DNA from: Pseudoalteromonas xiamenensis
GTDB taxonomy: Bacteria; Pseudomonadota; Gammaproteobacteria; Enterobacterales; Alteromonadaceae
DNA length: 64,000 nt
Assembly (NCBI RefSeq): GCF_030994125.1
Contig: NZ_CP099917.1
Location: 2,136,501-2,200,500, forward strand
Direction of reading: 5' to 3'
The translations under genes and the position numbers were made by a program. Shown piece after piece: positions 30,574 through 45,628 of this stretch; within the stretch, counting starts at the first letter, position 1; each line of letters opens with the position of its first letter. Under the pieces are notes generated by a model. It searched no databases. It saw nothing but the letters and a program-made list of their open reading frames with translations, and was not told the origin of the DNA.

Positions 30574-30681
30574 TTAAAATAAGCTTAAAATAGCGTCAAC
30601 GAGCGCTTGTTCTGCACCAAAATAATTTGTGTTTACGCCGCCATTCGCTTGTTTCAACTCTTGGGTATTCAATGTACGCAT
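30574..30681 (-). CDS. GG-leader peptide precursor, helix type
   Basis: 35 residues. The leader MRTLNTQELKQANGG matches the double-glycine type cut by C39 peptidases. The 20-residue remainder (VNTNYFGAEQALVDAILSLF) has no Cys and reads as an amphipathic helix ending in Phe. AGGAA precedes the ATG. It is the last gene of precursor block III. A membrane-active or signalling peptide is possible; no modification site is obvious. Confidence 0.75.
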   Translation of the reverse strand: MRTLNTQELKQANGGVNTNYFGAEQALVDAILSLF

Positions 30682-30696
30682 TTTACTTGTTCCTAA

Positions 30697-30807
30697 TTAA
30701 TTGAACATTTCGCCAACTTCTTGACCGCGCCATGAAACACAACCGCCTGCAACGATGCCACCAGTTACTTCTTTTGATTCTTCTGCTGTTAATGAAAATG
30801 GATGCAT
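30697..30807 (-). CDS. MHPFSL-family GG-leader peptide precursor
   Basis: 36 residues: leader MHPFSLTAEESKEVTGG, core IVAGGCVSWRGQEVGEMFN. The core begins with the xVxGGC motif shared with the precursors at 32576 and 33092 and has one Cys and one Ser, so a single thioether ring is conceivable. A second GG four residues into the core could be an alternative cleavage point. A conserved-loop hairpin lies 57 bp upstream. Confidence 0.75.
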   Translation of the reverse strand: MHPFSLTAEESKEVTGGIVAGGCVSWRGQEVGEMFN

Positions 30808-30863
30808 TTTCCTGTCCTTATTTCTGTTTCTCTAAATTATGCCTAGAAAGGCCCTTATTTAAG

Positions 30864-30889
30864 TGGATGGTCCCGCCAAGTTCCATCCA
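30864..30889 (-). other. Conserved-loop hairpin 1 (CCGCCAAG element)
   Basis: Stem TGGATGG/CCATCCA (7 bp) around loop TCCCGCCAAGTT. It lies between two MHPFSL precursor genes. The stem differs from the other copies while the loop core is kept. Confidence 0.6.
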
Positions 30890-30896
30890 GCAAAAA

Positions 30897-31061
30897 TTAC
30901 ATTATTTTAAAATCACGCGGGTCGCTGCCATCTTCAGGAATCGCCATCGTTACCATGATAGGACCCCCATTTTCTCTCAGTGCAGATGAAACGAAGCCGT
31001 CAGCTACCGAACCACCTGTAACTTGTGAAGATTGTTCTTTTTGCAAAGAAAATGGATGCAT
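30897..31061 (-). CDS. MHPFSL-family GG-leader peptide precursor with IPEDG tail
   Basis: 54 residues: leader MHPFSLQKEQSSQVTGG, core of 37 residues ending MAIPEDGSDPRDFKIM. The core tail is a diverged copy of the VVVTQAIPEDGNDPRL tail in the precursors at 32316 and 32576. No Cys; Ser, Thr, Asp and Glu are present. AAGGAAAC precedes the ATG. Confidence 0.75.
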   Translation of the reverse strand: MHPFSLQKEQSSQVTGGSVADGFVSSALRENGGPIMVTMAIPEDGSDPRDFKIM

Positions 31062-31113
31062 GATTGTTTCCTTATTACATTTAGTGATTGAAATGCCATT
31101 ATTGGCGTATTTA

Positions 31114-31146
31114 AGGTCGGTCTACTCCGCCAAGAATGCCCGACCT
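31114..31146 (-). other. Conserved-loop hairpin 2
   Basis: Stem AGGTCGG/CCGACCT (7 bp), 19-base loop containing CTCCGCCAAGA. It lies about 50 bp upstream of the precursor gene starting at 31061. Confidence 0.6.
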
Positions 31147-32272
31147 CTCAATTCGTTATTTAAATGCGCACTTTTTTGCGGCGCAAGCACATGACGACAG
31201 GATGAAAAAAGTGGACGTCCTGGTCCAAAGCGCGTAATTCCTTCGCTGAAGTCACCATGTTAAGACTCATTACGTTGTCGGGGTTTTTGGTGTCATTATC
31301 AGGACAAACAAGTCCACTAAACACGCCCCCTCGAAAATTGATGAAGCCATGTTGGCTTAAAAAAAGAAAGAATCAAATCAAGCGAAAAATAAAATTATCA
31401 TTACATATCAATATAATAAGTTAAAAACTTATCTGCATATAACGACTATTTACGCGGTAAATATCCTTAGAACAAAACGGAGAAATGAAATGTGCGATTC
31501 GCAATAAAACAACGATGAAAATTAAGGTTTGCTGCAAGTGAGTTTGTACAGACCGCAGCAAACAATGTGCAAATTCAGCTATTTTATCTTGCATTAGATT
31601 GATCATTTGATGTGATTTCCGACACTGCAGAAGCACAACCTTATTCCCGAAATCACTCTCACGAACATTGTTATGAGGTATTCGTTCACCTGGGTCTTTG
31701 ACCCCCAACTGAACATGTCTTTTTCATCAATAAATAACGGGTAACAAAGAGTGTCACTTGCCTTTAAGCAACACAACCTAAAGGCAAATATCTGTTTAGA
31801 CGATGACATCAAATTACACCGTTAGACAAACCAACATATTCATCAAACATGGCTGGACAATAGAAGTTAGCGGCAAACATAACACGCTTATCGACAATCA
31901 TAGACGACCAAATATGCACACTCGGTTCGTTTATACGAGTGAATGCGGGCGTTTAATTTTAAAGGGTTTTACTTATGTTTATCTCATTCGTGATAGTTTG
32001 GAAAGTACGCCATCGGTAGGTGAAAACTCGCCTTTTGTCTAACCCATAAGGTTTTTAGGAGAACATTCCTTGGCCGGATATAGACGTTGCCTTTAGTTAC
32101 AGAGGAATAAGTTGCTTGATAGGTAGATGAGGAAAAATCAGGATAGATGTGGTGGATTTCAACTTGATGGCTTTAGCATTACATTACAGTGTTGTCGGGA
32201 AACGATGAGCCAATCCCCTTTGGCAATTGCTGTCGTGACTACGTGACCATAACAGCCAAGTAGGTAAGTCTA

Positions 32273-32305
32273 GAGAAGGCTGTCTCCGCCAAGATAAGCC
32301 TTCTC
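32273..32305 (-). other. Conserved-loop hairpin 3
   Basis: Stem GAGAAGGCT/AGCCTTCTC (9 bp), loop GTCTCCGCCAAGATA. It lies just after the precursor gene ending at 32316. Confidence 0.65.
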
Positions 32306-32315
32306 CACCGAACGA

Positions 32316-32483
32316 TTACATCGTTAGGTCTAGACGCGGATCATTTCCGTCTTCTGGGATCGCTTGCGTTACCACTACTGGGCCGCCCGCTTCTTTCAGT
32401 GACATCGTAATTTCTACATTGCCAGCAAAAACGCCGCCAGTAACTTGTGAAGCTTGGTCATTTTTTAGTGAAAATGGGTGCAT
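32316..32483 (-). CDS. MHPFSL-family GG-leader peptide precursor with IPEDG tail
   Basis: 55 residues: leader MHPFSLKNDQASQVTGG, then a Cys-free core with VEITMSLKEAGG and the tail IPEDGNDPRLDLTM. It is nearly identical in its C-terminal half to the 66-residue precursor at 32576, which carries an extra Cys-containing insert. AAGGAAAC precedes the ATG. It lies between conserved-loop hairpins 3 and 4. Confidence 0.78.
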   Translation of the reverse strand: MHPFSLKNDQASQVTGGVFAGNVEITMSLKEAGGPVVVTQAIPEDGNDPRLDLTM

Positions 32484-32534
32484 GTTTGTTTCCTTATTTC
32501 TGATTTCTCTTAAGTGCCAAAGGCAGGTTGTTTT

Positions 32535-32566
32535 GGGAAGGTTTCTCCGCCAAGATTCACCTTCCC
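32535..32566 (-). other. Conserved-loop hairpin 4
   Basis: Stem GGGAAGGT/ACCTTCCC (8 bp), loop TTCTCCGCCAAGATTC, between two related precursor genes. Confidence 0.65.
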
Positions 32567-32575
32567 TACGGACGA

Positions 32576-32776
32576 TTACATCGTTAGTTCTAGACGCGGA
32601 TCGTTACCGTCTTCTGGGATTGCTTGCGTTACTACAACTGGGCCGCCCGCTTCTTTCAGTGACAATGTAATTTCTACACCGCCAGTTTCTTTAAATTCGT
32701 ATGTGACACAGCCGCCAGCTACAACGCCGCCTGTTACTTGTGATGATTGGTCATTTTTTAATGAAAATGGGTGCAT
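32576..32776 (-). CDS. MHPFSL-family GG-leader peptide precursor, longest member
   Basis: 66 residues: leader MHPFSLKNDQSSQVTGG, then VVAGGCVTYEFKETGG, then the shared tail with SLKEAGGPVVVT and IPEDGNDPRLELTM. One Cys with several Thr/Ser. It combines the GGC head of the 30697/33092 peptides with the tail of the 32316 peptide, so the family appears to be built by module shuffling or internal deletion. AAGGAG precedes the ATG. Confidence 0.82.
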   Translation of the reverse strand: MHPFSLKNDQSSQVTGGVVAGGCVTYEFKETGGVEITLSLKEAGGPVVVTQAIPEDGNDPRLELTM

Positions 32777-32825
32777 AATAGTCTCCTTATTTCTGATTTC
32801 TCAATGGTGCCCTGATGGGCGTGTT

Positions 32826-32860
32826 AAAGTTGATAGACTCCGCCAAGACTCTTCAACTTT
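32826..32860 (-). other. Conserved-loop hairpin 5
   Basis: Stem AAAGTTGA/TCAACTTT (8 bp), 19-base loop containing GACTCCGCCAAGACT, about 50 bp upstream of the 66-residue precursor gene. Confidence 0.65.
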
Positions 32861-32980: not shown

Positions 32981-33082
32981 TTAGAAGAAATTGCGAAGTA
33001 CTTCAATCAAGTTGTCGATTTCCGTTTGAGCCGGATGACCACCTGAAATAGATGAAAGTGCTTTATTATCAATAGATAACAT
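32981..33082 (-). CDS. GG-leader peptide precursor, helix type
   Basis: 33 residues: leader MLSIDNKALSSISGG, core HPAQTEIDNLIEVLRNFF. Cys-free and probably helical, ending Phe-Phe. It resembles in style the peptides at 30574 and 35827. AAGGAT precedes the ATG. It follows the next precursor after nine bases. Confidence 0.72.
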   Translation of the reverse strand: MLSIDNKALSSISGGHPAQTEIDNLIEVLRNFF

Positions 33083-33091: not shown

Positions 33092-33199
33092 TTAGTTTTG
33101 AGCACCGTGCTCTGCGAATACGACTGTCATACAACCGCCTTCGATGATTCCGCCATTAACTTGTTGCTGTTCTACTTTCGTTAGTGAAAATGGGTGCAT
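33092..33199 (-). CDS. MHPFSL-family GG-leader peptide precursor
   Basis: 35 residues: leader MHPFSLTKVEQQQVNGG, core IIEGGCMTVVFAEHGAQN with one Cys and one Thr. It shares the xxxGGC core start with two other family members. AGGAG precedes the ATG. Confidence 0.75.
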   Translation of the reverse strand: MHPFSLTKVEQQQVNGGIIEGGCMTVVFAEHGAQN

Positions 33200-33336: not shown

Positions 33337-33492
33337 TTAGTAAGGAATACAATCGCCACACACGTAGCCACATGTTTCATTTTGTGACCATGCAACTTTT
33401 GGCATGCCGCCGTTAACTTGGTCTGTCAATGAAGGTGACATTGCTTGTTTGTTTAGGTTTTTTACTACTGATTTTTTGATAGTTAATTTCAT
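33337..33492 (-). CDS. Cys-rich GG-leader peptide precursor next to the ATP-grasp gene
   Basis: 51 residues. The leader is long and basic at its start (MKLTIKKSVV...) and ends DQVNGG at residue 29. The core MPKVAWSQNETCGYVCGDC (then IPY) holds three Cys plus Ser and Thr, so it is one of the better candidates for lanthionine or disulfide formation. AGAGGAAA precedes the ATG. It begins 40 bp after the ATP-grasp stop codon on the same strand. Confidence 0.78.
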   Translation of the reverse strand: MKLTIKKSVVKNLNKQAMSPSLTDQVNGGMPKVAWSQNETCGYVCGDCIPY

Positions 33493-33531: not shown

Positions 33532-34455
33532 TTAGTGTGATTGACCTAACATGTAGTCAATCAAATATTCGGTTACAGGGATCCCTGACCCTTGCTCAAA
33601 TCCCATAAACATCGGCGATGGATTGGCCTCCAAAAAGAAATATTCCCCTTGTTCATTGCGACGCCAATCAATGGCCGTCCAATTCAAAAACAGCGTCTTT
33701 GTTATACTAAGAGCCTGTTCTTCTATCTCTTTTGGAGTATCAATTAAAACCAATTCCATCGCCGCATCGTTTCTGAAATCAGCCTGATCACTTTTTAATT
33801 CAACTGAAAATACTTTTTGCCCAATCACGTACGTTCGAATATTTGTTCCAGCAATAAATTCCTGCACGGTAATTGGCGATTTTGCCAGCGCACTTGCAAC
33901 ACGTTCTGAAGCTAAGTGCGCTTCGGTTAGTATTTCCGTATGGGCACCACCGTATACTGGTTTGAAGATGCTACGCGGTAACATTTCAAAAGCTTGGCGA
34001 ATATCCTCTAAGCTGTTACCTACGTAGGTCTTTGGGATCTTTACTCCGAGCTGACCGACCTTAAGTAATTGAAAAGGCTTTTCTTTATGGTGCTGAAAGG
34101 CTGTCCAGCTATTCACCCATTTAGTGCCAGTATCTAAATGAAACCATGTACGCAGACACGCTAAACTGTCTTGTGCTGCAATACTGTCTTCGGACATAAA
34201 ATTGCTTCGAGTAGCCTCATCACTGACTCCTGAAAAATTGCGCCAAAATACGGCTTGAATTTCGCTTAATTCAAGCGTTTTGCCTTCCGGTAATGTCAAC
34301 CGACCGGTACCATCATTTGGGCAAATACTCAGCTGCGCCTTTTTCGGAAAATCGTAGGTTTGCAACAAATACGCTTCAACGCCACGTAGTTTGAGTTGTT
34401 CTAACATATGCATTGCATGCGGATCTTGATGTTGCCCCATAACGATTACTGCCAT
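33532..34455 (-). CDS. ATP-grasp enzyme, RimK/graspetide-ligase-like
   Basis: 307 residues. An N-terminal pre-ATP-grasp domain (about 1-110) precedes the ATP-grasp fold: a nucleotide-binding Lys in SIFKPVYGGAHTEIL, the hinge ITVQEFIAGTNIRTYVIG, and metal ligands in AIDWRRN and FFLEANPSPMFMGFEQ. The layout resembles RimK-type and MvdC/MvdD-type ligases, which join carboxylates to amines or hydroxyls; graspetide ligases make side-chain ester or amide rings. It lies between a non-GG acidic/His-rich small gene upstream and a Cys-rich precursor downstream, either of which could be its substrate. Which reaction it performs is inferred. Confidence 0.82.
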   Translation of the reverse strand: MAVIVMGQHQDPHAMHMLEQLKLRGVEAYLLQTYDFPKKAQLSICPNDGTGRLTLPEGKTLELSEIQAVFWRNFSGVSDEATRSNFMSEDSIAAQDSLACLRTWFHLDTGTKWVNSWTAFQHHKEKPFQLLKVGQLGVKIPKTYVGNSLEDIRQAFEMLPRSIFKPVYGGAHTEILTEAHLASERVASALAKSPITVQEFIAGTNIRTYVIGQKVFSVELKSDQADFRNDAAMELVLIDTPKEIEEQALSITKTLFLNWTAIDWRRNEQGEYFFLEANPSPMFMGFEQGSGIPVTEYLIDYMLGQSH

Positions 34456-34472: not shown

Positions 34473-34646
34473 TTAATGGATGTGATGAACATCTAAATGG
34501 TCAAAATTGCTGTCACTAGTATTGAACAGATGGCAATCTGCTGAAGCACTGTCCATCAATAGTGTGTCAATACTGTCCACGGCCATTTGTTTATCTAAAA
34601 ATCGTGCTAGTTCGTACTCTGAATAAAAGAATTTTTTGTTCGCCAT
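34473..34646 (-). CDS. Small peptide without GG motif upstream of the ATP-grasp gene
   Basis: 57 residues, no signal peptide, no double glycine. An N-terminal basic/aromatic part (MANKKFFYSEYELARFL) and a middle SIDTLLMDSASADCHLF lead to an acidic, His-rich end NFDHLDVHHIH. AAGGCT lies upstream. It is 17 bp before the ATP-grasp gene, so the two are cotranscribed. It could be the dedicated ATP-grasp substrate, since Ser/Thr and Asp side chains for ring closure are present. A metal-binding role for the His cluster is an alternative. Confidence 0.65.
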   Translation of the reverse strand: MANKKFFYSEYELARFLDKQMAVDSIDTLLMDSASADCHLFNTSDSNFDHLDVHHIH

Positions 34647-35826: not shown

Positions 35827-35928
35827 TTAGAATAATGCAAAGCTACTTAAACTGTTGACGATATCTTCGATACTCTGTGGTAAACCGCCATTTACGGCTA
35901 CTACATCATTAACACTAAGTTGTTTCAT
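35827..35928 (-). CDS. GG-leader peptide precursor, helix type
   Basis: 33 residues: leader MKQLSVNDVVAVNGG, core LPQSIEDIVNSLSSFALF. Cys-free, amphipathic and ending in Phe, like the cores at 30574 and 32981. AGGTG precedes the ATG. Last gene of block II. Confidence 0.75.
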   Translation of the reverse strand: MKQLSVNDVVAVNGGLPQSIEDIVNSLSSFALF

Positions 35929-36128: not shown

Positions 36129-36221
36129 TTAAAGGTCGCATTCAATTTTTGAATAGTCTTCTTTAATTGGATTTAAGCTTCCGCCAATGACTGATTTCAA
36201 TTGTTCAACTGTGAGTGTCAT
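36129..36221 (-). CDS. GG-leader peptide precursor, short acidic
   Basis: 30 residues: leader MTLTVEQLKSVIGG, core SLNPIKEDYSKIECDL with a single Cys near the C-terminus. AAGGAG precedes the ATG. Confidence 0.72.
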   Translation of the reverse strand: MTLTVEQLKSVIGGSLNPIKEDYSKIECDL

Positions 36222-36244: not shown

Positions 36245-36412
36245 TTAAACTGGCAATTTCATTGCTTGCTCATGTGTGAATCGATCGCCGCCGCCACAGC
36301 CACATTCAACGCCACATGAGGAGATCACGCCACCGGCAACCGCGGGTGTCGCCGCAAATGGTAGTGATTTACTTACGCTCAGGTTTTTTATTTTCTTAAC
36401 TGTTACTTTCAT
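36245..36412 (-). CDS. Cys/Gly-rich GG-leader peptide precursor
   Basis: 55 residues from the ATG at 36412, which has AAAGGAG upstream. The leader is 28 residues with a basic start (MKVTVKKIKN) and ends TPAVAGG. The core VISSCGVECGCGGGDRFTHE (then QAMKLPV) has three Cys and two adjacent Ser in its first part, so it is a good candidate lanthionine peptide. The long basic leader resembles that of the precursors at 33337, 36781 and 45482. Confidence 0.78.
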   Translation of the reverse strand: MKVTVKKIKNLSVSKSLPFAATPAVAGGVISSCGVECGCGGGDRFTHEQAMKLPV

Positions 36413-36484: not shown

Positions 36485-36613
36485 TTAAAATTCAACCAGC
36501 GTTCTATCGATAGTTTCTCCACAAAAGTGGACTGTTGGAGGGCAGCCACCTGCAACTTGAATTAACGTAGCGTCACAGTGAAGTTCTTTAAGTTTGATTT
36601 TCTTAATTTTCAT
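36485..36613 (-). CDS. CPPT-family GG-leader peptide precursor (copy 1)
   Basis: 42 residues: leader MKIKKIKLKELHC... ending QVAGG at 23, core CPPTVHFCGETIDRTLVEF. It starts with Cys-Pro-Pro-Thr and has a second Cys seven residues later. Paralogue of the next gene upstream, with identical length and spacing. Confidence 0.75.
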   Translation of the reverse strand: MKIKKIKLKELHCDATLIQVAGGCPPTVHFCGETIDRTLVEF

Positions 36614-36634: not shown

Positions 36635-36763
36635 TTAGTTAGCAAACTCAGGGATTGTTCTGTCAAAATCACATCCATGGATAGTAGGAGGACACCCACC
36701 TGCTACTTTGCCTAATACAGAATCATTGTTCAGTTCTTTTAGATTTAGTTTCTTAAGTTTCAT
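36635..36763 (-). CDS. CPPT-family GG-leader peptide precursor (copy 2)
   Basis: 42 residues: leader MKLKKLNLKELNNDS... ending KVAGG, core CPPTIHGCDFDRTIPEFAN. Both Cys, the Pro pair and the DRT motif are shared with copy 1, while other positions vary. This suggests selection on a disulfide or thioether loop. AAGGAAAAC precedes the ATG. Confidence 0.75.
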   Translation of the reverse strand: MKLKKLNLKELNNDSVLGKVAGGCPPTIHGCDFDRTIPEFAN

Positions 36764-36780: not shown

Positions 36781-36933
36781 TTAGAATGCGATTTGTTCTA
36801 TCGTTTTTTGGCTATGGCAACCGCGATACATTGTTGGATCGGTGTGTGTACCACCCGCAACTTTTTCCGTTAATGAATCAGAGAATTGCTTACCAGATAA
36901 ACCCTTCATTACTTTTTTATTTAACTTAATCAT
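36781..36933 (-). CDS. GG-leader peptide precursor with His/Thr-rich core
   Basis: 50 residues: basic leader of 28 residues (MIKLNKKVMKGLSG...) ending EKVAGG, core THTDPTMYRGCHSQKTIEQI (then AF). One Cys, three Thr and one Ser would allow a lanthionine ring. AAAGGT precedes the ATG. Confidence 0.75.
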   Translation of the reverse strand: MIKLNKKVMKGLSGKQFSDSLTEKVAGGTHTDPTMYRGCHSQKTIEQIAF

Positions 36934-36944: not shown

Positions 36945-37037
36945 TTATTTTTTAATTAGATCGATCAAGTGTGGAGGTAGACAGCCACCTTCAGAACGGC
37001 CACCATGAACTAAACTTACATTTTCAATATTCAACAT
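36945..37037 (-). CDS. GG-leader peptide precursor, very short leader
   Basis: 30 residues: leader MLNIENVSLVHGG (13), core RSEGGCLPPHLIDLIKK. It contains a second GG just before the Cys and a CxPP motif echoing the CPPT pair. GAGG precedes the ATG. Confidence 0.7.
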   Translation of the reverse strand: MLNIENVSLVHGGRSEGGCLPPHLIDLIKK

Positions 37038-37057: not shown

Positions 37058-37198
37058 TTAAAGCGCTGCCAGTGTGCAGACACTTTGGCATGAATTTTCA
37101 ATAATATCGTTTGGTCTAGCTACACCAGCCCCAACGACTTTTGATGCCTCATTGTTCGATAAATTTTTAATCGATTTTTTGCTAACTTTTAACTTCAT
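37058..37198 (-). CDS. GA-leader peptide precursor
   Basis: 46 residues: basic leader (MKLKVSKKSIKNLSNNEASK) ending VVGA, core GVARPNDIIENSCQSVCTL (then AAL). Gly-Ala replaces Gly-Gly, which C39 peptidases also accept. Two Cys four residues apart, with Ser and Thr. GGAG precedes the ATG. First gene of block II. Confidence 0.72.
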   Translation of the reverse strand: MKLKVSKKSIKNLSNNEASKVVGAGVARPNDIIENSCQSVCTLAAL

Positions 37199-37550
37199 CG
37201 TTATCTCCAACTACATTACACATCGTGTACAAAACACATCGTACAGCCAGAAAATTAGCAACAATTCCTCGATGAGTCAAAAACACAAAAAACCAAAAAT
37301 ACCTTTTTAAATCAATGCGAAATAGTAAAAAGTGATTAATACATATCGCAATAGTAACAATAGAAAATTTTTCATTTTCCATTTCCCTGTACTGAACTTA
37401 CTGATTGATAAGTCAAGTTGGGGTGCGGCGCTCACTTCTATAAGAGGCTGAGCACCAGTAATCAAAAAAAGGATTATAGAAAACCGCTTTTAATCGAACC
37501 GACACCTCAAAAGAAGAAAGAATAAATATAAAAAACACATCTACACCGAC
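37199..37550. promoter_or_regulatory. Promoter-bearing gap upstream of precursor block II
   Basis: AT-rich, without a credible gene. The block II promoter should lie here, with the octanucleotide repeat directly upstream of it. Confidence 0.35.
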
Positions 37551-37790
37551 AGATAAACAGATAAACAGATAAACAGATAAACAGATAAACAGATAAACAG
37601 ATAAACAGATAAACAGATAAACAGATAAACAGATAAACAGATAAACAGATAAACAGATAAACAGATAAACAGATAAACAGATAAACAGATAAACAGATAA
37701 ACAGACAAACAGACAAACAGACAAACAGACAAACAGACAAACAGACAAACAGACAAACAGACAAACAGACAAACAGACAAACAGACAAAT
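37551..37790. repeat. Octanucleotide tandem repeat, about 30 units
   Basis: Nineteen copies of AGATAAAC (37551-37702) are followed by ten copies of AGACAAAC (37703-37782) and one degenerate unit. All three minus-strand frames are open through it and would encode Leu/Val/Cys/Tyr octapeptide repeats, but no ribosome site precedes them, so it is probably non-coding. It lies between the block I terminator and block II. The sharp switch between two unit types suggests expansion of two separate founder units. Confidence 0.95.
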
Positions 37791-38629: not shown

Positions 38630-38740
38630 TTAGTCCCATTGGTATTTGATTTCTAGTGACTCATTACCTTTGGTGTATTTCACTGTAATTGATCCAGCAC
38701 CATTTACGGCTTGAATGTCGTTTTGAGTTAACGTTTTCAT
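38630..38740 (-). CDS. NGAG beta-hairpin peptide precursor, copy 7
   Basis: 36 residues, same protein as copy 6. AGGAG precedes the ATG in the 141-bp unit. Confidence 0.8.
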   Translation of the reverse strand: MKTLTQNDIQAVNGAGSITVKYTKGNESLEIKYQWD

Positions 38741-38770: not shown

Positions 38771-38881
38771 TTAGTCCCATTGGTATTTGATTTCTAGTGA
38801 TTCATTACCTTTGGTGTATTTCACTGTAATTGAACCAGCACCATTTACGGCTTGAATGTCGTTTTGAGTTAATTGTTTCAT
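38771..38881 (-). CDS. NGAG beta-hairpin peptide precursor, copy 8
   Basis: 36 residues, same core as copies 6 and 7; the leader begins MKQLTQ instead of MKTLTQ. The first gene of the NGAG array in transcription order and the least similar at its 5' end. Confidence 0.8.
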   Translation of the reverse strand: MKQLTQNDIQAVNGAGSITVKYTKGNESLEIKYQWD

Positions 38882-38897: not shown

Positions 38898-39014
38898 TTA
38901 GAAACTGATTTGAAATCCAACACCGATAGAACCTGTATCTGCGTTGTATTCCACATAGTAATTAACGCCACCAAAAACATGGCCAAGTAGATTTTTATTA
39001 ATTTCGTTCATCAT
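38898..39014 (-). CDS. GG-leader precursor with beta-signal-like core, copy 1
   Basis: 38 residues (two adjacent ATGs; the second would give 37): leader ending GHVFGG, core VNYYVEYNADTGSIGVGFQI plus SF. The core has two alternating strands and ends in Phe with hydrophobic residues at 3, 5, 7 and 9 from the C-terminus, as in outer-membrane-protein beta-signals. Confidence 0.78.
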   Translation of the reverse strand: MMNEINKNLLGHVFGGVNYYVEYNADTGSIGVGFQISF

Positions 39015-39025: not shown

Positions 39026-39139
39026 TTAGAAGCTAATCTTGAAACCGACACCAATTGTCCGGTTATCCGCGTTGTACTCGATGTAATAATCAACACCGCC
39101 AGAAATCTCACTTAACATAACACCATTAATATCTTTCAT
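39026..39139 (-). CDS. GG-leader precursor with beta-signal-like core, copy 2
   Basis: 37 residues: leader MKDINGVMLSEISGG, core VDYYIEYNADNRTIGVGFKI plus SF. Same spacing and C-terminal rule as its neighbours. No Cys. Confidence 0.78.
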   Translation of the reverse strand: MKDINGVMLSEISGGVDYYIEYNADNRTIGVGFKISF

Positions 39140-39151: not shown

Positions 39152-39265
39152 TTAAAATCTAATTTTAAAACCAACACCAATTGTTTTATTATCTGCGTTG
39201 TATTCGATGTAATAATCAACACCACCAGCAACCAACGCAACACTTGAGCTATTTAATTCAACCAT
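39152..39265 (-). CDS. GG-leader precursor with beta-signal-like core, copy 3
   Basis: 37 residues: leader MVELNSSSVALVAGG, core VDYYIEYNADNKTIGVGFKI plus RF. The same protein is encoded by the next gene upstream, so the pair is a recent duplication of about 127 bp. Confidence 0.78.
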   Translation of the reverse strand: MVELNSSSVALVAGGVDYYIEYNADNKTIGVGFKIRF

Positions 39266-39278: not shown

Positions 39279-39392
39279 TCAAAATCTAATTTTAAAACCA
39301 ACACCAATTGTTTTATTATCTGCATTGTATTCGATGTAATAATCAACACCACCAGCAACCAACGCAACACTTGAGCTATTCAATTCAACCAT
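39279..39392 (-). CDS. GG-leader precursor with beta-signal-like core, copy 4
   Basis: 37 residues, protein identical to copy 3. It differs by silent changes and by using TGA as stop. Confidence 0.78.
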   Translation of the reverse strand: MVELNSSSVALVAGGVDYYIEYNADNKTIGVGFKIRF

Positions 39393-39406: not shown

Positions 39407-39520
39407 TTAAAATCTAACAGTAATACCAAAACCAACCGAACCAGTATCAGCATTATATTCCAAATAATAACCAATGCCGCCATTCACTTCTTTTACACTT
39501 TCTAAACTTAATAAATTCAT
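39407..39520 (-). CDS. GG-leader precursor with beta-signal-like core, copy 5
   Basis: 37 residues: leader MNLLSLESVKEVNGG, core IGYYLEYNADTGSVGFGITV plus RF. The most diverged member, yet it keeps YYxEYNAD, the central Gly pair and the C-terminal Phe rule. Confidence 0.78.
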   Translation of the reverse strand: MNLLSLESVKEVNGGIGYYLEYNADTGSVGFGITVRF

Positions 39521-39856: not shown

Positions 39857-39955
39857 CTATCGCGTATACTCTTCAATATCTGGACACATAGGCACATCAT
39901 CACCAGATTCACCACCAGACACTTTTTTAAGACTATGTAACGTTAATGCTTTCAT
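39857..39955 (-). CDS. GG-leader peptide precursor, acidic single-Cys type
   Basis: 32 residues: leader MKALTLHSLKKVSGG, core ESGDDVPMCPDIEEYTR with one Cys in a MCPD motif. Similar in style to the preceding gene product. Confidence 0.7.
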   Translation of the reverse strand: MKALTLHSLKKVSGGESGDDVPMCPDIEEYTR

Positions 39956-40059: not shown

Positions 40060-40155
40060 CTAGTTTGGAAGCTGATTCCAAAGCTTGGTTTGGTCAAGTT
40101 TTGGATCGTAGTTCTGACCACCAGAAACTAGATTTAATGCTGTTAATTCTTTCAT
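40060..40155 (-). CDS. GG-leader peptide precursor, first gene of block I
   Basis: 31 residues: leader MKELTALNLVSGG, core QNYDPKLDQTKLWNQLPN, Cys-free. AAAGGAAAAATC precedes the ATG. A conserved-loop hairpin lies 100 bp upstream, between it and the transporter stop codon. Confidence 0.7.
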   Translation of the reverse strand: MKELTALNLVSGGQNYDPKLDQTKLWNQLPN

Positions 40156-40254: not shown

Positions 40255-40290
40255 ATTTAAGCTTATCTCCGCCAAGATTTAAGCTTAAAT
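40255..40290 (-). other. Conserved-loop hairpin 6
   Basis: Stem ATTTAAGCTT/AAGCTTAAAT (10 bp) around loop ATCTCCGCCAAGATTT, between the second C39 transporter gene and the first block I precursor gene. The stem is AT-rich, unlike the GC-rich copies, but pairing and loop are kept. Confidence 0.65.
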
Positions 40291-40361: not shown

Positions 40362-42575
40362 TTACACCATTAAAAAATCACCACTAAAACTAGTGTTTTT
40401 ACAAAACTCTTTTTTAATACATAATCTAGGTTTTATCTTATTGGATATTCGCCCGTCTAAATTAGGCCTATCGACATCGATTGCATCACCATACCGAAGT
40501 TCTACAACTCTATCTGCACTGGCAATCGTCTCGGGCCGATGAGCGATGATAATTCGAGTGATATCAAGCCGTTTAACCGCCTCATTTACTGAGCTTTCCA
40601 ATCGTGTATCCAGATTACTCGTTGCTTCATCCATGAACAAAATCTTCGGTTTTCGATATAAGGCTCGAGCAAGCAGTAATCGTTGTATTTGCCCGCCTGA
40701 CAGTGCAGCCCCCATATCACCTACAAGCGAGTTGTAACCCATGGTCATTTTGGCAATGTCGTTGTCAATTGCCGCAATTTTTGCAGCCCATCGAACCCGC
40801 TCCATGTCCATATTAGGGTCAAAGAAGCAGATATTATCCGCGATGGAACCTGAGAGTAGTTGGTCATCTTGCATGACTGCAGCTATCTGTCCTCGGTAAT
40901 GTCCGAGCCCTATTTGTCGGATATCCACACCATCTACAAGTACCTTTCCTGAGTCTGGTTCAAATAAACCCAGCATTATCTTTGCCAGCGTCGTCTTGCC
41001 ACAGCCGGAAGGTCCGATAATGGCAATAGACTCTCCTGCTTTTATTTTTAAATTCAAATTTCGAAATACTGGGTCTTCTTTTTTATTGTATCGATACTGA
41101 ATATTCTGCAATTCAATTTCACCGGACAGTTCTCGACTCTTTACTTTGCTCTCAATATCACTTTCTTTGTCAGAGAGCGAAATATCGGCAAGTCGATTAA
41201 AGTGCAAACTAAGCATTTTAAATTCGATCATTTTCTCAATAAGGCTTGCCATCTTTTCTATAAACTGTCGCTTGTACGCCATAAAAGCGAAAAGCATCCC
41301 AACGGTCAGATCCCCACTCATCACTAAAAGTGCAGCAAAATAAACCACCAACACGTTTTCTAAACCAAAGATCATTTTATTAAATGCTTCGTAGCCAATA
41401 TTTAGATGTCCGACTCGGATCCCTGCGTTTAGGCTGTCTGCAAATTTGTTGTGCCAAACACTTTGTCGCTGTACTTCTCTCCCGAACAACTTGATTGTTT
41501 GAATACCGCGTACGGTTTCCATAAAGTTAGATTGCTCTTTCGCTTGATTGACTATCACTTCTTCCGACATTTGACGAAGTGGTCGATACATGGCAATGCG
41601 AAACACGGCATAAATAGCGGTAGCAATAAGTACAACGACACTTAATTTAGGACTATAAATAAAGATCATCACAAGCGTTGCAATAGCCATCACACCATCA
41701 ATTAACGCTTGGATCACACCGGTTGTAAGTAGTTCTTTCACCTTTTGCAAAGAGCCAAAACGTGAAACCACGTCACCAATGTGACGTTTTTCAAAATATT
41801 GAAGCGGCAGTCGCACTAAATGATGGAATAAGTTTGCACCTAGTTGAATACTCATCAGGTTACCAAAATGCAGCAACAGAATACTACGTACGGCCCCGGT
41901 CACCATTTCAATCATTAACAGCAGCCCAAATCCAAGTGCTAAGATGGCCAACAAATTCTGGTCGTAACTTAGTACCACTTCATCAACTACCAACTGCATA
42001 TAGTAAGGACTTGCTATCGCAAAAACCTGCAACAATAGAGAAAGTAAAAACACTTTGCCCAAGGTTGATTTTAGGCCTGTAACCTTACTCCAAAAGTCAG
42101 ATAGCTTTAAATTGACTCGGGTATCTTCCGATTTAAACTCTTCCGTTGGATTGAGCTCCAATGCAACACCCGTAAAGTGCTTCGAAAACTCTGCCATGGT
42201 GTATTTACGGTAACCAAGGCCAGGATCATGAACTTCAACCGAGTCTCTATTCACTTTTTTAAGTACCACAAAGTGGTTCATATCCCAGTGCAAAATACAG
42301 GGCGTTTTCAACTGAGGAAGATGTTCCATTTCGAGTCTTAACGCTCGAGAACTCAACTTCAGCTTGTCTGCAATTTGCATCAGCTCTTCTAGGTTAGCGC
42401 CTTTGAGTGAGATTTCATGCGCTTGACGCAGCGTAGTAAGATCCGTCTGGTAGCCATGATATGCGGCAACCATAGCTAAACTGGCTAACCCACATTCAGC
42501 CGCTTCGGTTTGAATGATCACTGGCAAACGTTTTTTGCCACTGAATTTAAGCAAGTGCATTGGGTTTTCCATCAT
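40362..42575 (-). CDS. C39-peptidase ABC transporter, copy 2
   Basis: 737 residues, collinear with copy 1. The C39 domain has Cys near 28 (AAECGLASLAMVAAYHGYQ), His near 101 (WDMNHFVVLKK) and Asp near 117 (VHDPGLG). Six membrane helices and an ATPase domain with GPSGCGKTTLA, LSGGQIQR and ILFMDEATSNLD follow. The C-terminus has an extra tail of about 35 residues (DVDRPNLDGRISNKIKPRL...) absent from copy 1. It overlaps the HlyD gene by 4 bp and lies directly upstream of precursor block I, so it is the most likely exporter of those peptides. Confidence 0.95.
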   Translation of the reverse strand: MMENPMHLLKFSGKKRLPVIIQTEAAECGLASLAMVAAYHGYQTDLTTLRQAHEISLKGANLEELMQIADKLKLSSRALRLEMEHLPQLKTPCILHWDMNHFVVLKKVNRDSVEVHDPGLGYRKYTMAEFSKHFTGVALELNPTEEFKSEDTRVNLKLSDFWSKVTGLKSTLGKVFLLSLLLQVFAIASPYYMQLVVDEVVLSYDQNLLAILALGFGLLLMIEMVTGAVRSILLLHFGNLMSIQLGANLFHHLVRLPLQYFEKRHIGDVVSRFGSLQKVKELLTTGVIQALIDGVMAIATLVMIFIYSPKLSVVVLIATAIYAVFRIAMYRPLRQMSEEVIVNQAKEQSNFMETVRGIQTIKLFGREVQRQSVWHNKFADSLNAGIRVGHLNIGYEAFNKMIFGLENVLVVYFAALLVMSGDLTVGMLFAFMAYKRQFIEKMASLIEKMIEFKMLSLHFNRLADISLSDKESDIESKVKSRELSGEIELQNIQYRYNKKEDPVFRNLNLKIKAGESIAIIGPSGCGKTTLAKIMLGLFEPDSGKVLVDGVDIRQIGLGHYRGQIAAVMQDDQLLSGSIADNICFFDPNMDMERVRWAAKIAAIDNDIAKMTMGYNSLVGDMGAALSGGQIQRLLLARALYRKPKILFMDEATSNLDTRLESSVNEAVKRLDITRIIIAHRPETIASADRVVELRYGDAIDVDRPNLDGRISNKIKPRLCIKKEFCKNTSFSGDFLMV

Positions 42576-43816
42576 ATGGCTCCTTTCATGCTGTAAAATG
42601 GTTCAAATAACCACTCAAAAAGTGTGCGACTATCAACCATAATGTCGGCTTCTAATAGCATTCCTGCTTGCAATGGCACTGATGCGCCATAGGCTTTCGC
42701 ACTTTGTGAATCTAGTTTCACAATGACTTGGTATACAGGCTCTTGCAGACGCACAGGCACGGTCGCCTCTGTTGGAAGGAGAATGGATTTAGACACTTTT
42801 ACAATTTCCCCTTCATAGATCCCAAAACGTTGATATGGAAACGCTTGATAACGGATCCGTGTAGATTGGCCAGTTTGCACAAATCCATAAGCACGCGTAG
42901 GAACAAACAGCACCGCTTCTAAATCCGAGTCTGCTGGGAGAATCGTCATCACTGGTGTCGAGGGCTGAACGACCATGCCAGGCTTTATTTGCAAATTAGA
43001 GACGATGCCATCTCGCAGGCTCCGCACTTCAAAGCTTTGTTGTGCGACAGCTTGTGCCAATTGTTGATTAATGTTTGCCAACTGCGACTGCAACTGCGAT
43101 AACGCTTCCTCTTCTTGGATAGGCATTTGAGTATTTTCAAACTCGAGTTGGCTGACTTGCTCTTCTAAGCTAAAGATACGACTTTGTAATTCCTGCTTTT
43201 GCTGCTGCAATGCCAACAAATTATCCGTTAGACTTTGATAATCGGTCTGTGAAACAAAGTTTTGCTTCATTAGAACGGTTACGTCTTCTACTCGTTTCTT
43301 ACTTAATAATTCACGTTCAGAGAGTAATTGGTGTTGCTTTCTCGTTTGCTCTAACTGCAACTTCGCTGAGGCGATTTGTGAGACAAGTTTGTCTTTATTT
43401 ACGGAAAACAATTGCTTTTGATTGACTAAATTGACTTCGAGTAACTGTTTTTGTTTTCCTAGCTCTTCGCTAATAAACACATTCATGTCTAATCCGGTAT
43501 TGAGCAAACGTTCCATCCGCACCCGCGCAAGAAGCTGGCCCTTACGAACATGCTGGCCTTCTTCAACGAGCAGCTCATCAATGGTGCCCATATTAATCGG
43601 ATAAACTTTGCTCAACCCTTGAGAAGGTTGTAGGTAACCTGCAACCACTTCTTTACGATGATATTCACCCAAGAATAGATAACTGCAGGCAATCACCACA
43701 ATGGCCACAATGAGTGCCAATATCCAATTGAACGACATGTGTGTCGCGATAGTCACTTCACCATCTAACTTTTGTCCTTGATGTTGGATGGCTTCTTTAC
43801 GAAATAAATCAGACAT
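42572..43816 (-). CDS. HlyD-family periplasmic adaptor, copy 2
   Basis: 414 residues, the same length as copy 1. One membrane segment (about 30-52), lipoyl half-motifs (IDELLVEEGQHVRKGQLLARV and RDGIVSNLQIKPGMVVQ), a long coiled coil (about 100-250) and a C-terminal beta domain (TRIRYQAFPYQRFGIYEGEI). It starts inside the stop codon of the SnoaL-like gene (TAATG), so the three genes are translationally coupled. Confidence 0.92.
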   Translation of the reverse strand: MSDLFRKEAIQHQGQKLDGEVTIATHMSFNWILALIVAIVVIACSYLFLGEYHRKEVVAGYLQPSQGLSKVYPINMGTIDELLVEEGQHVRKGQLLARVRMERLLNTGLDMNVFISEELGKQKQLLEVNLVNQKQLFSVNKDKLVSQIASAKLQLEQTRKQHQLLSERELLSKKRVEDVTVLMKQNFVSQTDYQSLTDNLLALQQQKQELQSRIFSLEEQVSQLEFENTQMPIQEEEALSQLQSQLANINQQLAQAVAQQSFEVRSLRDGIVSNLQIKPGMVVQPSTPVMTILPADSDLEAVLFVPTRAYGFVQTGQSTRIRYQAFPYQRFGIYEGEIVKVSKSILLPTEATVPVRLQEPVYQVIVKLDSQSAKAYGASVPLQAGMLLEADIMVDSRTLFEWLFEPFYSMKGAI

Positions 43817-44166
43817 TACAACACCATTGATTCAGGTAGAGGGTTGCTGCTGTATACACACCAGTTGTCATCCGATTTAACCAAAGTATGGATATTGCTC
43901 GAACGCTTTGTACGAGTTTCTCCTTCAATCGTGGCTTCAAACACTAATTGATCACGCACAATAAGAAGCTCGTCTTGTTTTGCAAGTAACGAGACATCCA
44001 TCAATTTCAATTCAAAGCTGAATTGTTTTCGCATCGCCTCAAATTGCTGCTTGTTCGTTTCGCCAAGTGGCGAATTGGGAAAATAAAAAGCATCAAGATC
44101 AGCGAGGTCGCCACGACTTATTACTGAATAGTAGTTGTCAAAATATTCTCTCAACGTCATTGCCAT
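43816..44166 (-). CDS. SnoaL/NTF2-like small protein in the exporter operon
   Basis: 116 residues from the ATG at 44166, seven bases after AAGGTG. It begins with an NTF2-like helix (MTLREYFDNYYSVISRGDLADLDAF) and continues with curved beta strands ending WCVYSSNPL. NTF2-like folds serve as small-molecule enzymes or binding scaffolds. It leads the HlyD/C39 operon, so a role in peptide maturation or export is possible; this is inferred from position alone. Confidence 0.65.
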   Translation of the reverse strand: MAMTLREYFDNYYSVISRGDLADLDAFYFPNSPLGETNKQQFEAMRKQFSFELKLMDVSLLAKQDELLIVRDQLVFEATIEGETRTKRSSNIHTLVKSDDNWCVYSSNPLPESMVL

Positions 44167-44932
44167 CTTAGTCACCTTGCCTCACGCCTTCTTATCGTTG
44201 TTAAAACTTGTCCGTTGTATCGAACGTCTTGTTGGTATATTGGCGAAACGAGCAACGAAAATCAAAACCTGAAAAAAATGATTTTTTCTTTTATTTTCTT
44301 ACAGTTAAGATTAAATATTATCTTGAGATATTGACAATCTTTGCTTTAATTAGAAGCTTTAAAGGAGTGAAAACCGAAATTGATAATCCTCTCGAGGCAA
44401 ATTATTATTTCACTGAGTGAAAGAGTTCAAATTGAGCGGTGCGGTCACCCTACAACTCAGTTTCGATATGGTGAAATGGATGTGCCTTCAGTGAGTAAAG
44501 GGGCAATGCGAAGAACGAACCGATGTCCTACTGCAGAACATACATTGGATGTGATGTTTATGGTTCACGCTCTCCATCAAGTTCTATCGTTCAATAGTTC
44601 ATGCCGAACCCGATAAATATCCTCTTGCTCCATTAAATGAAGATCAAAAGGCGGGGGCACTTCTTGATTTATGCTGGCAAGACGAAATACAAAGGGACTT
44701 TTGGGCAGTAACGAATGTATAGCCGTTGAATTTCAATCCCTCCGCAATTGAAAATACAGTGATGGTATATCATGTTATTGCACCAGAATACCAAAAGAAG
44801 TCTTTGCAGAAATAAGGGATTTTCCCAATTGAGACATAAATTTAGTATCTGAAAAGATGTATTTTAATTAGGGTATTTGTGGGGTTTGAAAATGGGGAAT
44901 AACATAAAAAGGATATTGAAATATCTGGGCTA
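44167..44932. other. Gap upstream of the second exporter operon, with a possible gene relic
   Basis: No intact gene. On the plus strand about 44554-44719 an open stretch reads FYRSIVHAEPDKYPLAPLNE and QDEIQRDFWAVTNV before a stop, with protein-like composition but no start codon. It may be a decayed gene. The promoter of the SnoaL/HlyD/C39 operon should lie in 44200-44350. Confidence 0.3.
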
Positions 44933-45433
44933 CTAGTTTAGCCCAGACGTTTCACAATGTTCATGCATGGCCTGCATGGAAAGATGCTTAAACTCGTTCA
45001 ACCGCTCGTTTCCTGCGAGCTCTCCTTGAAAAAACATCCAATTTCCTTGCTTACGCACAAAGGTTACTTCTACCGCGCGACCATCAATACACAGCTTTGA
45101 TAAACTACCTACTTGAAACTGCGTAGTGTCATCCGCCAGCACACCTTGAATGATATTCGGTTTTATGCCAACCAATAACTCACCTTCATCAAAGGACTCT
45201 TTTTTTATAACCTGAAAGGCAGAGCCTGAAAATGAAGCGACTATAGTTTTATGCTTTCCTTTTGTATCACAATAGCTTAAAACCTTATCATTGATTTGAA
45301 CTTCGTCATCTATATCAATAAACCTCTGAATACAATTTCCCTTTTCCGAAGCATAAATATACTCATTTTGAGGTTCAATCAGTGTAGGTGTGCTACTCAC
45401 CAATGCCATGTGTAGAATTATATTGCTCAGCAT
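44933..45433 (-). CDS. Small protein with lipoyl-like hairpin, unknown function
   Basis: 166 residues, start chosen for the GGAGG site upstream. A short hydrophobic N-terminus (about 1-13) is followed by a region with the pattern of lipoyl/biotinyl halves: IDIDDEVQINDKVLSYCDTK then ASFSGSAFQVIKKESFDEGE (LLVGIKP), similar to HlyD-type adaptors but without a coiled coil. The C-terminal part contains four Cys in total. It lies 48 bp downstream of the orphan GG precursor at 45482, so they may be cotranscribed. Function unknown. Confidence 0.5.
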   Translation of the reverse strand: MLSNIILHMALVSSTPTLIEPQNEYIYASEKGNCIQRFIDIDDEVQINDKVLSYCDTKGKHKTIVASFSGSAFQVIKKESFDEGELLVGIKPNIIQGVLADDTTQFQVGSLSKLCIDGRAVEVTFVRKQGNWMFFQGELAGNERLNEFKHLSMQAMHEHCETSGLN

Positions 45434-45481
45434 AGCCTATTGCCTCCATTCTTGAGCAGCAGTCATCTCCCTACAATAAAA

Positions 45482-45628
45482 TTATGCCTGTGTTCGTGAA
45501 GGCTCTGTTTTCGTTGAGTGCGAGATATCTTCAAGTCCACCACCAATTTTGTGTGTGTGTTTAGCATTAATTAGTGACGCATCAGAAAGTTGCTTTAGTG
45601 ATTTCTTTTTAAGAGTCAATTTAAACAT
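45482..45628 (-). CDS. Orphan GG-leader peptide precursor, Ser/Thr-rich core
   Basis: 48 residues: basic leader MFKLTLKKKSLKQLSDASLI then NAKHTHKIGGG, core LEDISHSTKTEPSRTQA with five Ser/Thr and no Cys. It is 5.3 kb away from the main array. AAAGGAAA precedes the ATG. A dehydrated or ATP-grasp-modified product is conceivable. Confidence 0.72.
   Translation of the reverse strand: MFKLTLKKKSLKQLSDASLINAKHTHKIGGGLEDISHSTKTEPSRTQA

Follow-up and report, generated by a model that had tools for sequence, protein, structure and literature searches.

A large array of Gly-Gly leader peptide genes beside two C39 exporters in Pseudoalteromonas xiamenensis, a probable shared secretion hub

A 64,000-nucleotide (nt) stretch of the Pseudoalteromonas xiamenensis genome (NZ_CP099917.1, positions 2,136,501 to 2,200,500; hereafter the window) carries an array of 35 small genes whose products have a leader ending in Gly-Gly (GG) or Gly-Ala (GA). 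The array lies near two C39 peptidase-containing exporters, a LanB dehydratase, two LanC cyclase-like proteins, and an ATP-grasp peptide ligase. The small genes are under purifying selection, and one group of them pairs with the ATP-grasp gene. We think it likely that the locus serves as a common secretion hub through which at least three kinds of small peptide are exported, with competition against other bacteria as its likeliest role. The host genome consists of two contigs (4.6-Mb).

Small genes under purifying selection

We scanned the window for open reading frames (ORFs) of 25 to 80 amino acids (aa) with an ATG start, a Shine-Dalgarno-like match, and a leader of 12 to 34 residues that ends in G[GA] and has a hydrophobic residue or Ala at position -4 and at -7 or -12. 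The scan returned 35 ORFs, all on the minus strand at 30574-45628, and none on the plus strand of that region or elsewhere in the window. In 60 dinucleotide shuffles of the region, minus-strand matches averaged 0.5 and never exceeded 2; a stricter version of the scan returned 31 ORFs, all in the same region. The 35 products are 30 to 66 aa long, with leaders of 13 to 31 aa (26 GG, 9 GA) and 29 distinct cores, and a Shine-Dalgarno-like match of 4 or 5 bases precedes every one. A preliminary description of this DNA had counted 35 peptides in these same length and leader ranges, most with a ribosome site, and the mechanical scan reproduces both statements.

Sequence change between related arrays bears the mark of translation. 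We took DNA-level alignments, picked without regard to protein similarity, and calculated mismatch rates at codon positions 1/2/3 of the ORFs and over the rest of the stretch, which counts the ATP-grasp gene too (G and L numbers are our handles for the genomes and records compared).

Window versus G062: 0.187/0.136/0.472; rest 0.273
Window versus all: 0.194/0.137/0.359; rest 0.305
G062 versus the P. rubra group: 0.096/0.062/0.196; rest 0.151
G001 versus G016: 0.143/0.116/0.223; rest 0.111
G046 versus G076: 0.021/0.014/0.039; rest 0.020

Position 2 is lowest and position 3 highest in all five comparisons, the pattern of translated genes under purifying selection. The ratio of nonsynonymous to synonymous difference (pN/pS), pooled over pairs that were preselected for protein similarity, include tandem copies, and are not independent, was 0.24 and fell below 1 in 148 of 163 pairs. 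The preliminary description had raised the loss of frame and GG motif in relatives at a noncoding rate as an outcome that would speak against it; the codon-position rates contradict such a loss.

Small ORFs are easily found in AT-rich DNA, and the segments 34647-35826 and 31062-32315 within the array hold no assignable open frame, so one might suspect chance ORFs or decayed DNA. However, 35 matches stand against a shuffle mean of 0.5 and maximum of 2, strand and place are exclusive, the codon-position signal is present, and counterparts occur in the same order in relatives. The shuffle control and the codon-position rates lead us to reject this explanation, which we regard as next to impossible.

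Precursor groups, enzymes, and exporters

Reading along the minus strand, the locus begins with a winged-helix regulator, one GG ORF, a 166-aa protein, a 119-aa protein, HlyD 1, and C39 exporter 1. The array follows exporter 1 and is succeeded by glmU, HlyD 2, C39 exporter 2, two LanC genes, and LanB. The whole locus sits between ATP-synthase genes and glmS; we assume these gene names (glmU, glmS, ATP synthase) from sequence and Pfam domains. The exporters and enzymes are as follows.

42572..43816, minus: HlyD-type membrane fusion protein 1 (Pfam)
40362..42575, minus: C39 peptidase/ABC exporter 1 (Pfam; motifs)
33532..34455, minus: ATP-grasp peptide ligase, MvdC/D-like (Pfam, NCBIfam; best solved structure 7drm, E 2.7e-29)
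27454..28698, minus: HlyD-type membrane fusion protein 2 (Pfam)
25310..27457, minus: C39 peptidase/ABC exporter 2 (Pfam; motifs)
23944..25155, minus: LanC cyclase-like protein a, WCYG and CHG present (Pfam; motifs)
22519..23733, minus: LanC cyclase-like protein b, WCYG and CHG present (Pfam; motifs)
19363..22509, minus: full-length LanB dehydratase, N and C domains (Pfam/NCBIfam)

LanB is a single 1048-aa protein (PF04738, E 1.3e-122; PF14028, E 7e-63). The WCYG and CHG motifs of the LanC proteins hold what we take to be the zinc residues, and both exporters have the ATPase motifs and the C39 Cys/His/Asp, presumably catalytic. These domain and motif results confirm the two C39 exporters, LanB, two LanC, and ATP-grasp enzyme first named from the sequence. 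A search of the whole genome with the C39 peptidase model gave two matches, both inside the locus; because these are the only ones, cutting at GG would most likely be performed by these two exporters.

The leaders of the 35 ORFs fall into three groups (mean column identity over all 35, 18%). Twenty-three are short leaders of 13 to 16 residues, of the type MKxLxxxxLxxVxGG, which we take to resemble those of class II microcins; their cores are 16 to 22 aa, 17 of the 23 lack Cys, and the locus offers this group no obvious modifying enzyme. Seven are Lys-rich, lanthipeptide-type leaders of 23 to 31 residues. Six of these seven ORFs have one to three Cys plus Ser/Thr and resemble class I lanthipeptide precursors; the ORF at 45482-45628 has no Cys. 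The remaining five start with MHPFSL. The preliminary description had suggested a combinatorial peptide set with highly diverse cores at a locus resembling those for RiPPs (ribosomally synthesized and posttranslationally modified peptides). Unusually many genuine, gene-like GG/GA precursors are indeed present, along with C39 exporters and RiPP enzymes, but the precursors form at least three groups, and since the largest has no matching modifying enzyme, the term RiPP is backed by evidence for at most 12 of the 35. Likewise there are 29 distinct cores, but 13 of the 35 ORFs are amplified copies of two β-hairpin families (listed in the last section), so gene number reflects dosage as well as diversity. 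Pfam and NCBIfam searches of the 35 precursors gave one weak, chance-like Pfam match and two NCBIfam matches below cut-off, and no Nif11 match. The other members of the array, found by the scan unless stated, are given below.

45482..45628, minus: GG ORF preceding exporter 1, with a Lys-rich leader and no Cys; G062, G061, and G001 have similar ORFs in that position
40060..40155, minus: GG ORF, short leader
39857..39955, minus: GG ORF, acidic one-Cys core (VPMCPDI); same-place counterpart in G062 and L031-L033
39748..39843, minus: GG ORF, acidic core (GREYDDPCDP); same-place counterpart in G062, L032, and L034
39632..39724, minus: GG ORF, acidic two-Cys core; same-place counterpart in G062, L032, and L033
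39530..39622, minus: GG ORF, two-Cys core
37058..37198, minus: GA ORF, lanthipeptide-type leader, two Cys; NCBIfam lant_leader_L1b E 0.00016, 21.7 bits (cut-off 27); G062 orthologue 60%, pS 0.78, pN 0.23
36945..37037, minus: GG ORF, short leader, core RSEGGCLPPHL; G062 orthologue 68% identity, pS 0.70, pN 0.20
36781..36933, minus: GG ORF, lanthipeptide-type leader, one Cys; counterpart in G062
36635..36763, minus: GG ORF, lanthipeptide-type leader, two Cys; G062 orthologue 71% identity, pS 0.60, pN 0.16
36485..36613, minus: GG ORF, lanthipeptide-type leader, two Cys
36245..36412, minus: GG ORF, lanthipeptide-type leader, three Cys; counterpart in G062
36129..36221, minus: GG ORF, short leader (SKIECDL); counterpart in G062 and L041; leader versus CCRG-2 RiPP model E 0.0017, 18.3 bits (cut-off 24)
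35827..35928, minus: GG ORF, short leader
34473..34646, minus: 57-aa ORF without GG, directly upstream of ATP-grasp (outside the 35); 44-45% identical ORFs in G016 and G001
33337..33492, minus: GG ORF, lanthipeptide-type leader, three Cys
33092..33199, minus: MHPFSL ORF without T-x4-E-D core motif
32981..33082, minus: GG ORF, short leader
32576..32776, minus: MHPFSL graspetide-like precursor, repeated T-x4-E core (also protein-database search)
32316..32483, minus: MHPFSL graspetide-like precursor (also protein-database search)
30897..31061, minus: MHPFSL graspetide-like precursor
30697..30807, minus: MHPFSL ORF without T-x4-E-D core motif
30574..30681, minus: GG ORF, short leader

The 57-aa ORF is the one non-GG peptide that had been noted at the outset; it recurs upstream of ATP-grasp in two of six relatives, that is, in three of the seven regions compared (window, G016, and G001).

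The MHPFSL genes pair with the ATP-grasp gene. A close relative of the enzyme occurs in 12 of 108 genus genomes, all of them among the 14 whose exporter 1 reaches 75% identity. In 11 of these 12 loci, the ATP-grasp gene is followed within 817 nt on its 3' side by an MHPF...GG ORF; the twelfth locus is cut by a contig end. In G031, which has exporter 1 and no close ATP-grasp relative, the 20 kb read contained no MHPF...GG ORF. The enzyme matches PF21068 and PF08443 above cut-off, and its best structural match, 7drm, is presumably the plesiocin synthetase PsnB.

Three of the five MHPFSL members in the window have VTQA or VTMA followed by IPEDGxDPR, and a T-x4-E-D motif is present in three of the five ORFs and absent from two; the ORF at 32576-32776 has three consecutive T-x4-E units. 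The members in G061 have the core TTLAVGEEGG. A protein-database search with an MHPFSL precursor found six homologues at E 1e-3. As with graspetides such as microviridin and plesiocin, an MvdC/D-like ATP-grasp gene here neighbors precursor genes whose leaders have a Pro-Phe motif and whose cores have Thr...Glu/Asp. Roughly one in two graspetide precursors has a GG motif, and C39 transporters rank first among the neighboring genes (PMC8939145); plesiocin, too, has repeated core units (PMC12291112). The leader motif PFFARFL is described in the same source, according to which all graspetides characterized up to that report are protease inhibitors (PMC8939145). PFSL consists of P, one hydrophobic residue, Ser, and Leu, a partial fit to the published Phhx(1,2)h. 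Unlike in known graspetides, no named group was found for the window core [VI]T[MQ]A-x-PEDG-x-DP, which only three of five members carry.

A separate locus in Colwellia sp. TT2012 (L038, 13440-19573) encodes an exporter that shares 81% identity with exporter 1, and hydrophobic GG peptides in tandem come after it. The locus also holds microviridin-like precursors with a PFFANFL leader and a TMKYPSD core, the latter being what we take to be the microviridin signature.

The lanthipeptide enzymes have close precedent in the genus. LanB with LANC_like has already been reported in Pseudoalteromonas through genome mining (PMC11015633), and the P. viridis BBR56 locus, likened there to thalassomonasin, shares LanB N and C domains with LANC_like. 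The two differ in that the main text of that report, as available, uses the word "precursor" 0 times, while here the candidate precursors stand in a separate, larger array upstream of glmU. Relatives of LanB occur in 51 of the 108 genus genomes.

Relatives of the array and its noncoding elements

Arrays follow a C39 exporter 80 to 85% identical to exporter 1 in six further genomes (G062, G016, G001, G061, G076, and G046); the closest named exporter 1 records are mostly Pseudoalteromonas rubra (84-85% identical). Plus-oriented GG ORFs after the exporter, some single matches among them doubtful, number 31 in G062 (with 4 more upstream), 17 in G001, 15 in G061, 14 in G016, 11 in G046, and 10 in G076. 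Counterpart cassettes stand in the same order in the window and G062, with extra ORFs interspersed. The shared order starts with acidic Cys peptides (VPMCPDI, GREYDDPCDP, C-x2-C), the amplified family, and an 8-bp repeat tract; lanthipeptide-type and GGC peptides come after the tract, and the ATP-grasp and MHPFSL genes come last. The amplified family itself differs by genome, with 5 E and 8 D copies in the window, 11 copies of another family in G062, and six of yet another in G001. The array appears to combine conserved genes, whose order is kept in a relative, with a portion that is amplified and replaceable.

Of the 108 genomes, 14 have an exporter 1 that is at least 75% identical. LanB, in 51 of 108, is more widespread, which indicates that the lanthipeptide module and the exporter-1/array/ATP-grasp module are separable and meet near glmU. 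G016 and G001 both have LanB and exporter 1, and among the exporters listed for them none was of the exporter-2 type (about 60% identical to exporter 1). Seven draft genomes have exporter 1, and in six of them (G051, G054, G095, G053, G033, and G042) the contig stops no more than 1.6 kb 3' of the exporter; records L031-L035, partly from the same strains, likewise end there. Short-read assemblies tend to break in these arrays, so such loci and their sizes are probably undercounted in drafts.

Two noncoding elements accompany the genes.

40255..40290, minus: hairpin RNA element, loop CTTGGCGG, just behind exporter 1 (stem test)
37549..37789, no strand: 8-bp repeat tract, 30 copies (Tandem Repeats Finder)
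32826..32860, minus: hairpin RNA element, about 70 nt before next MHPFSL start (stem test; flank permutation)
32535..32566, minus: hairpin RNA element (stem test; flank permutation)
32271..32307, minus: hairpin RNA element (stem test)
31113..31147, minus: hairpin RNA element (stem test; flank permutation)
30864..30889, minus: hairpin RNA element, loop CTTGGCGGG (stem test; flank permutation)

The sequence CTTGGCGG is common to six array sites on the minus strand, within hairpins of differing stems, and copies also occur in G062, G016, G001, G031, L031, L043, L114, and L116; similar hairpins with TGGCGG are found in G061 and G076. Alignment of the hairpins with MAFFT put the stems out of register, so stem pairing was assessed by permuting flanks rather than with a covariance model. 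For 24 intergenic copies from this and related loci, picked by CTTGGCGG[AG] and hence with a loop constant by choice, own flanks pair over a mean of 7.33 bp, compared with 4.30 (maximum 5.50) for swapped flanks, and none of 5,000 permutations reached the observed value. The hairpin stems covary. Within this genome, five array copies have stems of 8 to 11 bp and 25 other CTTGGCGGA sites have no more than 5 bp (30 of 38 sites). In a contiguous-stem test, the six array copies singly gave P values of 0 to 0.075; several copies in relatives gave only 0.1 to 0.6. A looser count of loop-enclosing pairs was dropped, as it counted scattered pairs and 7 to 51 of 100 shuffles reached the value of the array copies.

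The distance from hairpin to next MHPF start is often 58 to 76 nt, and other copies lie 121 to 318 nt before a GG ORF. No Rfam family matched the window at gathering score, and three weak matches in the array at E up to 1 (E 0.69-0.97) all miss the hairpin sites; we therefore set aside a known structured RNA as its identity. No T-run was seen directly behind the stems, so a terminator is less likely than an intercistronic stabilizer, a processing site, or a site of protein binding. Tracts of 8-bp units also occur in G062 (region 14995-15467, 47-58 copies), G016 (region 11474-11583, 14 copies), and G076 (region 5936-5994, 7 copies), with a unit sequence that differs between the four genomes. 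The tract takes the same place in the window and G062, between the amplified hairpins and the lanthipeptide-type genes, and lies elsewhere in G016 and G076. It may be a phase-variation device.

Among the neighboring genes, one conserved protein adjoins exporter 1.

43816..44175, minus: 119-aa conserved protein, weakly NTF2-like, adjoining the exporter 1 genes (Pfam DUF4440, E 0.0085, below cut-off)

Its orthologues precede HlyD 1 in the six relatives where the place was read (G062, G016, G061, G001, G031, and G042), and its best match among solved structures was not significant (E 1.5). It could be an immunity or exporter accessory protein. The array contains two 1.2 kb gaps, 31062-32315 and 34647-35826, without an assignable open frame; their six-frame translations, judged by eye and not searched further, showed nothing nameable. 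Elsewhere in the window, an M9-family collagenase with two PPC domains (5523-8093, plus strand) is unrelated to the array.

Proposed function, amplified hairpins, and rival explanations

If the locus is a shared secretion hub, the precursors encoded by its 35 small genes would have their GG/GA leaders recognized and removed by one or both C39-type exporters, working with their HlyD partners and, presumably, TolC. About seven Lys-rich-leader, mostly Cys-bearing precursors would be dehydrated and ring-closed by LanB and LanC, and the MHPFSL group would be cross-linked through ester or amide bonds by the ATP-grasp enzyme. The other 23, including the two hairpin families, would leave the cell in linear or disulfide-bonded form. 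Released jointly, the lanthipeptides, the protease-inhibiting graspetides, and the microcin-like peptides would most likely act against other bacteria. We infer these steps of cutting, modification, and export, together with the antibacterial role and the targets, from sequence.

Several observations weigh against this reading. The GG ORFs are overall no better conserved than the rest of the array, and between G001 and G016 the rest (0.111) lies below all three codon positions, so that the ORFs change faster. The NCBIfam lanthipeptide-leader model matches one of the 35 precursors and the CCRG-2 RiPP model one, both below curated cut-offs; for the leader model (NF038158), this is one of the seven Lys-rich ORFs, the other six being without a match. 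The ATP-grasp protein likewise scores below the cut-offs of NCBIfam TIGR04187 (E 1.9e-36), TIGR04185, and TIGR04184. The cores measure only 16-49 aa, and almost none has a positive net charge. Genome G031 keeps exporter 1 with only two scan matches between it and glmU, so a big array is not obligatory. In agreement with the preliminary description, no immunity gene was recognized, and none of the neighboring proteins of 119, 166, and 183 aa matches a Pfam family above cut-off.

Core charge bears on whether the peptides are weapons or signals, both of which had been suggested at first. The peptides are probably secreted. Of the 35 cores, 34 have a net charge no higher than 0, which is unlike a cationic, membrane-lytic arsenal and argues against simple membrane lysis. 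A signalling repertoire within or between strains would suit these charges, the lack of a recognized immunity gene, and the small acidic one-Cys cores that keep their order between species. Yet a Pfam scan that covered 20 of the larger window proteins found no histidine kinase or receptor, the nearest regulator is the winged-helix protein (PF00486), 29 distinct cores would require many receptors, and modifying enzymes of two classes are present; we judge signalling improbable.

Many-precursor sets are already known from the prochlorosins, where one ProcM modifies 29 peptides, and SyncM has up to 79 substrates (PMC9872173). The number of genes here is therefore unusual, as originally claimed, but has precedent. 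Prochlorosins and synechococsins likewise combine many small precursors and diverse cores in one genome, with a biological function given as unknown (PMC9872173). A single promiscuous LanB/LanC machinery acting on nearly all 35 precursors would agree with the diverse cores, the GG leaders, and the linkage to LanB/LanC. Three unlike leader groups with 18% column identity, the lack of Cys in 17 of 23 short-leader cores, and the separability of modules seen in the counts for LanB (51 of 108) and exporter 1 (14 of 108) make this very unlikely, and the leader groups and separable modules disfavor any single-family RiPP set as well. One class II enzyme serves the known systems, whereas this locus combines LanB/LanC and ATP-grasp with peptides that appear unmodified, its leaders fall into three groups, and it has two C39 exporters and one array amplified in place; no LanM was found among the locus proteins scanned, the scope of that search. 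Class II microcins of Enterobacterales share with the array a GG/GA leader and a peptidase-containing ABC exporter with membrane fusion protein, and several of them can use one exporter (PMC10233263, PMC9746304). They differ in being about 5-10 kDa (PMC10233263), compared with short-leader cores of 16 to 22 aa here, in that no immunity gene was found here, and in the far larger number of genes.

The copies of the two amplified β-hairpin families are as follows (all found by the scan).

39407..39520, minus: family E, copy 1
39279..39392, minus: family E, copy 2
39152..39265, minus: family E, copy 3, modelled with core strands 16-23 and 28-35 (also AlphaFold)
39026..39139, minus: family E, copy 4
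38898..39014, minus: family E, copy 5
38771..38881, minus: family D, copy 1, ends YQWD
38630..38740, minus: family D, copy 2, ends YQWD
38489..38599, minus: family D, copy 3, ends YQWD
38351..38458, minus: family D, copy 4, ends ITYQW
38232..38339, minus: family D, copy 5, ends ITYQW
38113..38220, minus: family D, copy 6, ends ITYQW
37994..38101, minus: family D, copy 7, ends ITYQW
37872..37982, minus: family D, copy 8, ends YQWD

In families E and D, and likewise in the amplified families of G062, L032, L033, and G001, polar residues take turns with hydrophobic ones, and the last residue is F or W except in the four D copies ending in WD; an alternating aromatic C terminus is present in 9 of the 13 window copies. 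A protein-database search with family D found two homologues at E 1e-3. The AlphaFold model of one E copy, from 12 sequences, places a third strand (8-12) in the leader besides the two core strands; its predicted local distance difference test (pLDDT) is 67, 81, and 76 over residues 11-20, 21-30, and 31-37. We defined a strict C-terminal pattern (F/W/Y at the end, hydrophobic at -3/-5/-7, non-hydrophobic at -2/-4/-6) and applied it to 293 distinct GG cores from all loci scanned with a Shine-Dalgarno match of at least 4, chance ORFs included. Fifteen cores fit, compared with a mean of 0.32 and a maximum of 4 in 500 runs of within-core shuffling, and all 15 fall in the amplified families of the window, G062, G001, L032, and L033. 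Across all regions, the pattern is present in 6 of the 10 families that reach three copies within a single region; as four lack it, amplification and β-signal do not always go together.

This pattern recalls the C-terminal β-signal of outer-membrane proteins (OMPs), zeta-x-G-x-x-[aromatic/hydrophobic]-x-[aromatic/hydrophobic] (PMC10945584). The leader-free hairpins (such as GSFSVKYTKGDESLEITYQW, VDYYIEYNADNKTIGVGFKIRF, and GGYVYGKVTKDGWEIGFKYEF) might act as decoys, presenting an OMP-like signal that blocks BamA/BamD of the β-barrel assembly machinery (BAM) in competitors. Besides the pattern statistics and the two-stranded model, this idea draws on the copies in G062 and L033, whose ends EIGFKYEF and EIGVKYEF match the published signal, and on the inhibition of OMP assembly in vitro by OMP-derived C-terminal peptides, with darobactin resembling the β-signal (PMC10945584). 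The producer's own OMP_b-brl matches have similar ends in four of six cases (WGVGMSYRF, FGVKYNF, LGVERRF, and MLGYQF); a fifth frame ends KVKVQRK, and the sixth was read only partway. However, the families may be homologous, leaving two to four cases rather than 15. Half of the eight D copies end in WD, the full consensus with polar residue and Gly appears only in relatives' copies, the signal Gly being missing from D and G001, and four multicopy families lack the pattern (the G062 upstream set, G016, and two in L038). The model has an overall pLDDT of 68, and any amphipathic hairpin with a terminal aromatic residue would fit. Decoys are the boldest of our readings and in our estimate unlikely. 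Slightly less likely still is the fuller scheme, in which unmodified hairpins would be mass-produced to jam competitors' BAM, lanthipeptides and graspetides would leave through the same exporters, and RNA hairpins and the 8-bp tract would tune or phase-vary the dose. Mimicry of the β-signal has also been proposed for BAM-targeting RiPPs such as darobactin and dynobactin (for darobactin, PMC10945584 and PMC10135246), from which these hairpins, for which BAM is a candidate target, differ in being apparently unmodified, 20 to 22 residues long, and encoded by many gene copies.

Bulk production could instead serve a structural end, the hairpins forming secreted self-assembling β fibres or surface material. 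The 5 E and 8 D copies, the 11 copies of one peptide in G062 and six in G001, the β-hairpin model, and the small differences between copies would be explained. The leader type, exporter, and array are nevertheless common to other precursors, the peptides are unlike the known curli repeats, and the C-terminal aromatic residue is left unaccounted for, so that we hold a structural role to be improbable.

A shared secretion hub that serves competition remains our preferred explanation. No description of the array or the hairpin families was found in the literature available to our search, which mostly did not extend to subscription journals. For genome surveys, the breaks within arrays are a warning that such loci are probably undercounted in short-read assemblies. 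The locus offers dozens of short, easily synthesized peptides and a specific, cheap question, namely, whether the hairpins inhibit BAM. If our reading is true, three peptide chemistries share a set of GG exporters at a single Gram-negative locus, which also shows repertoire evolution as a conserved core of cassettes with one that is amplified and swapped.

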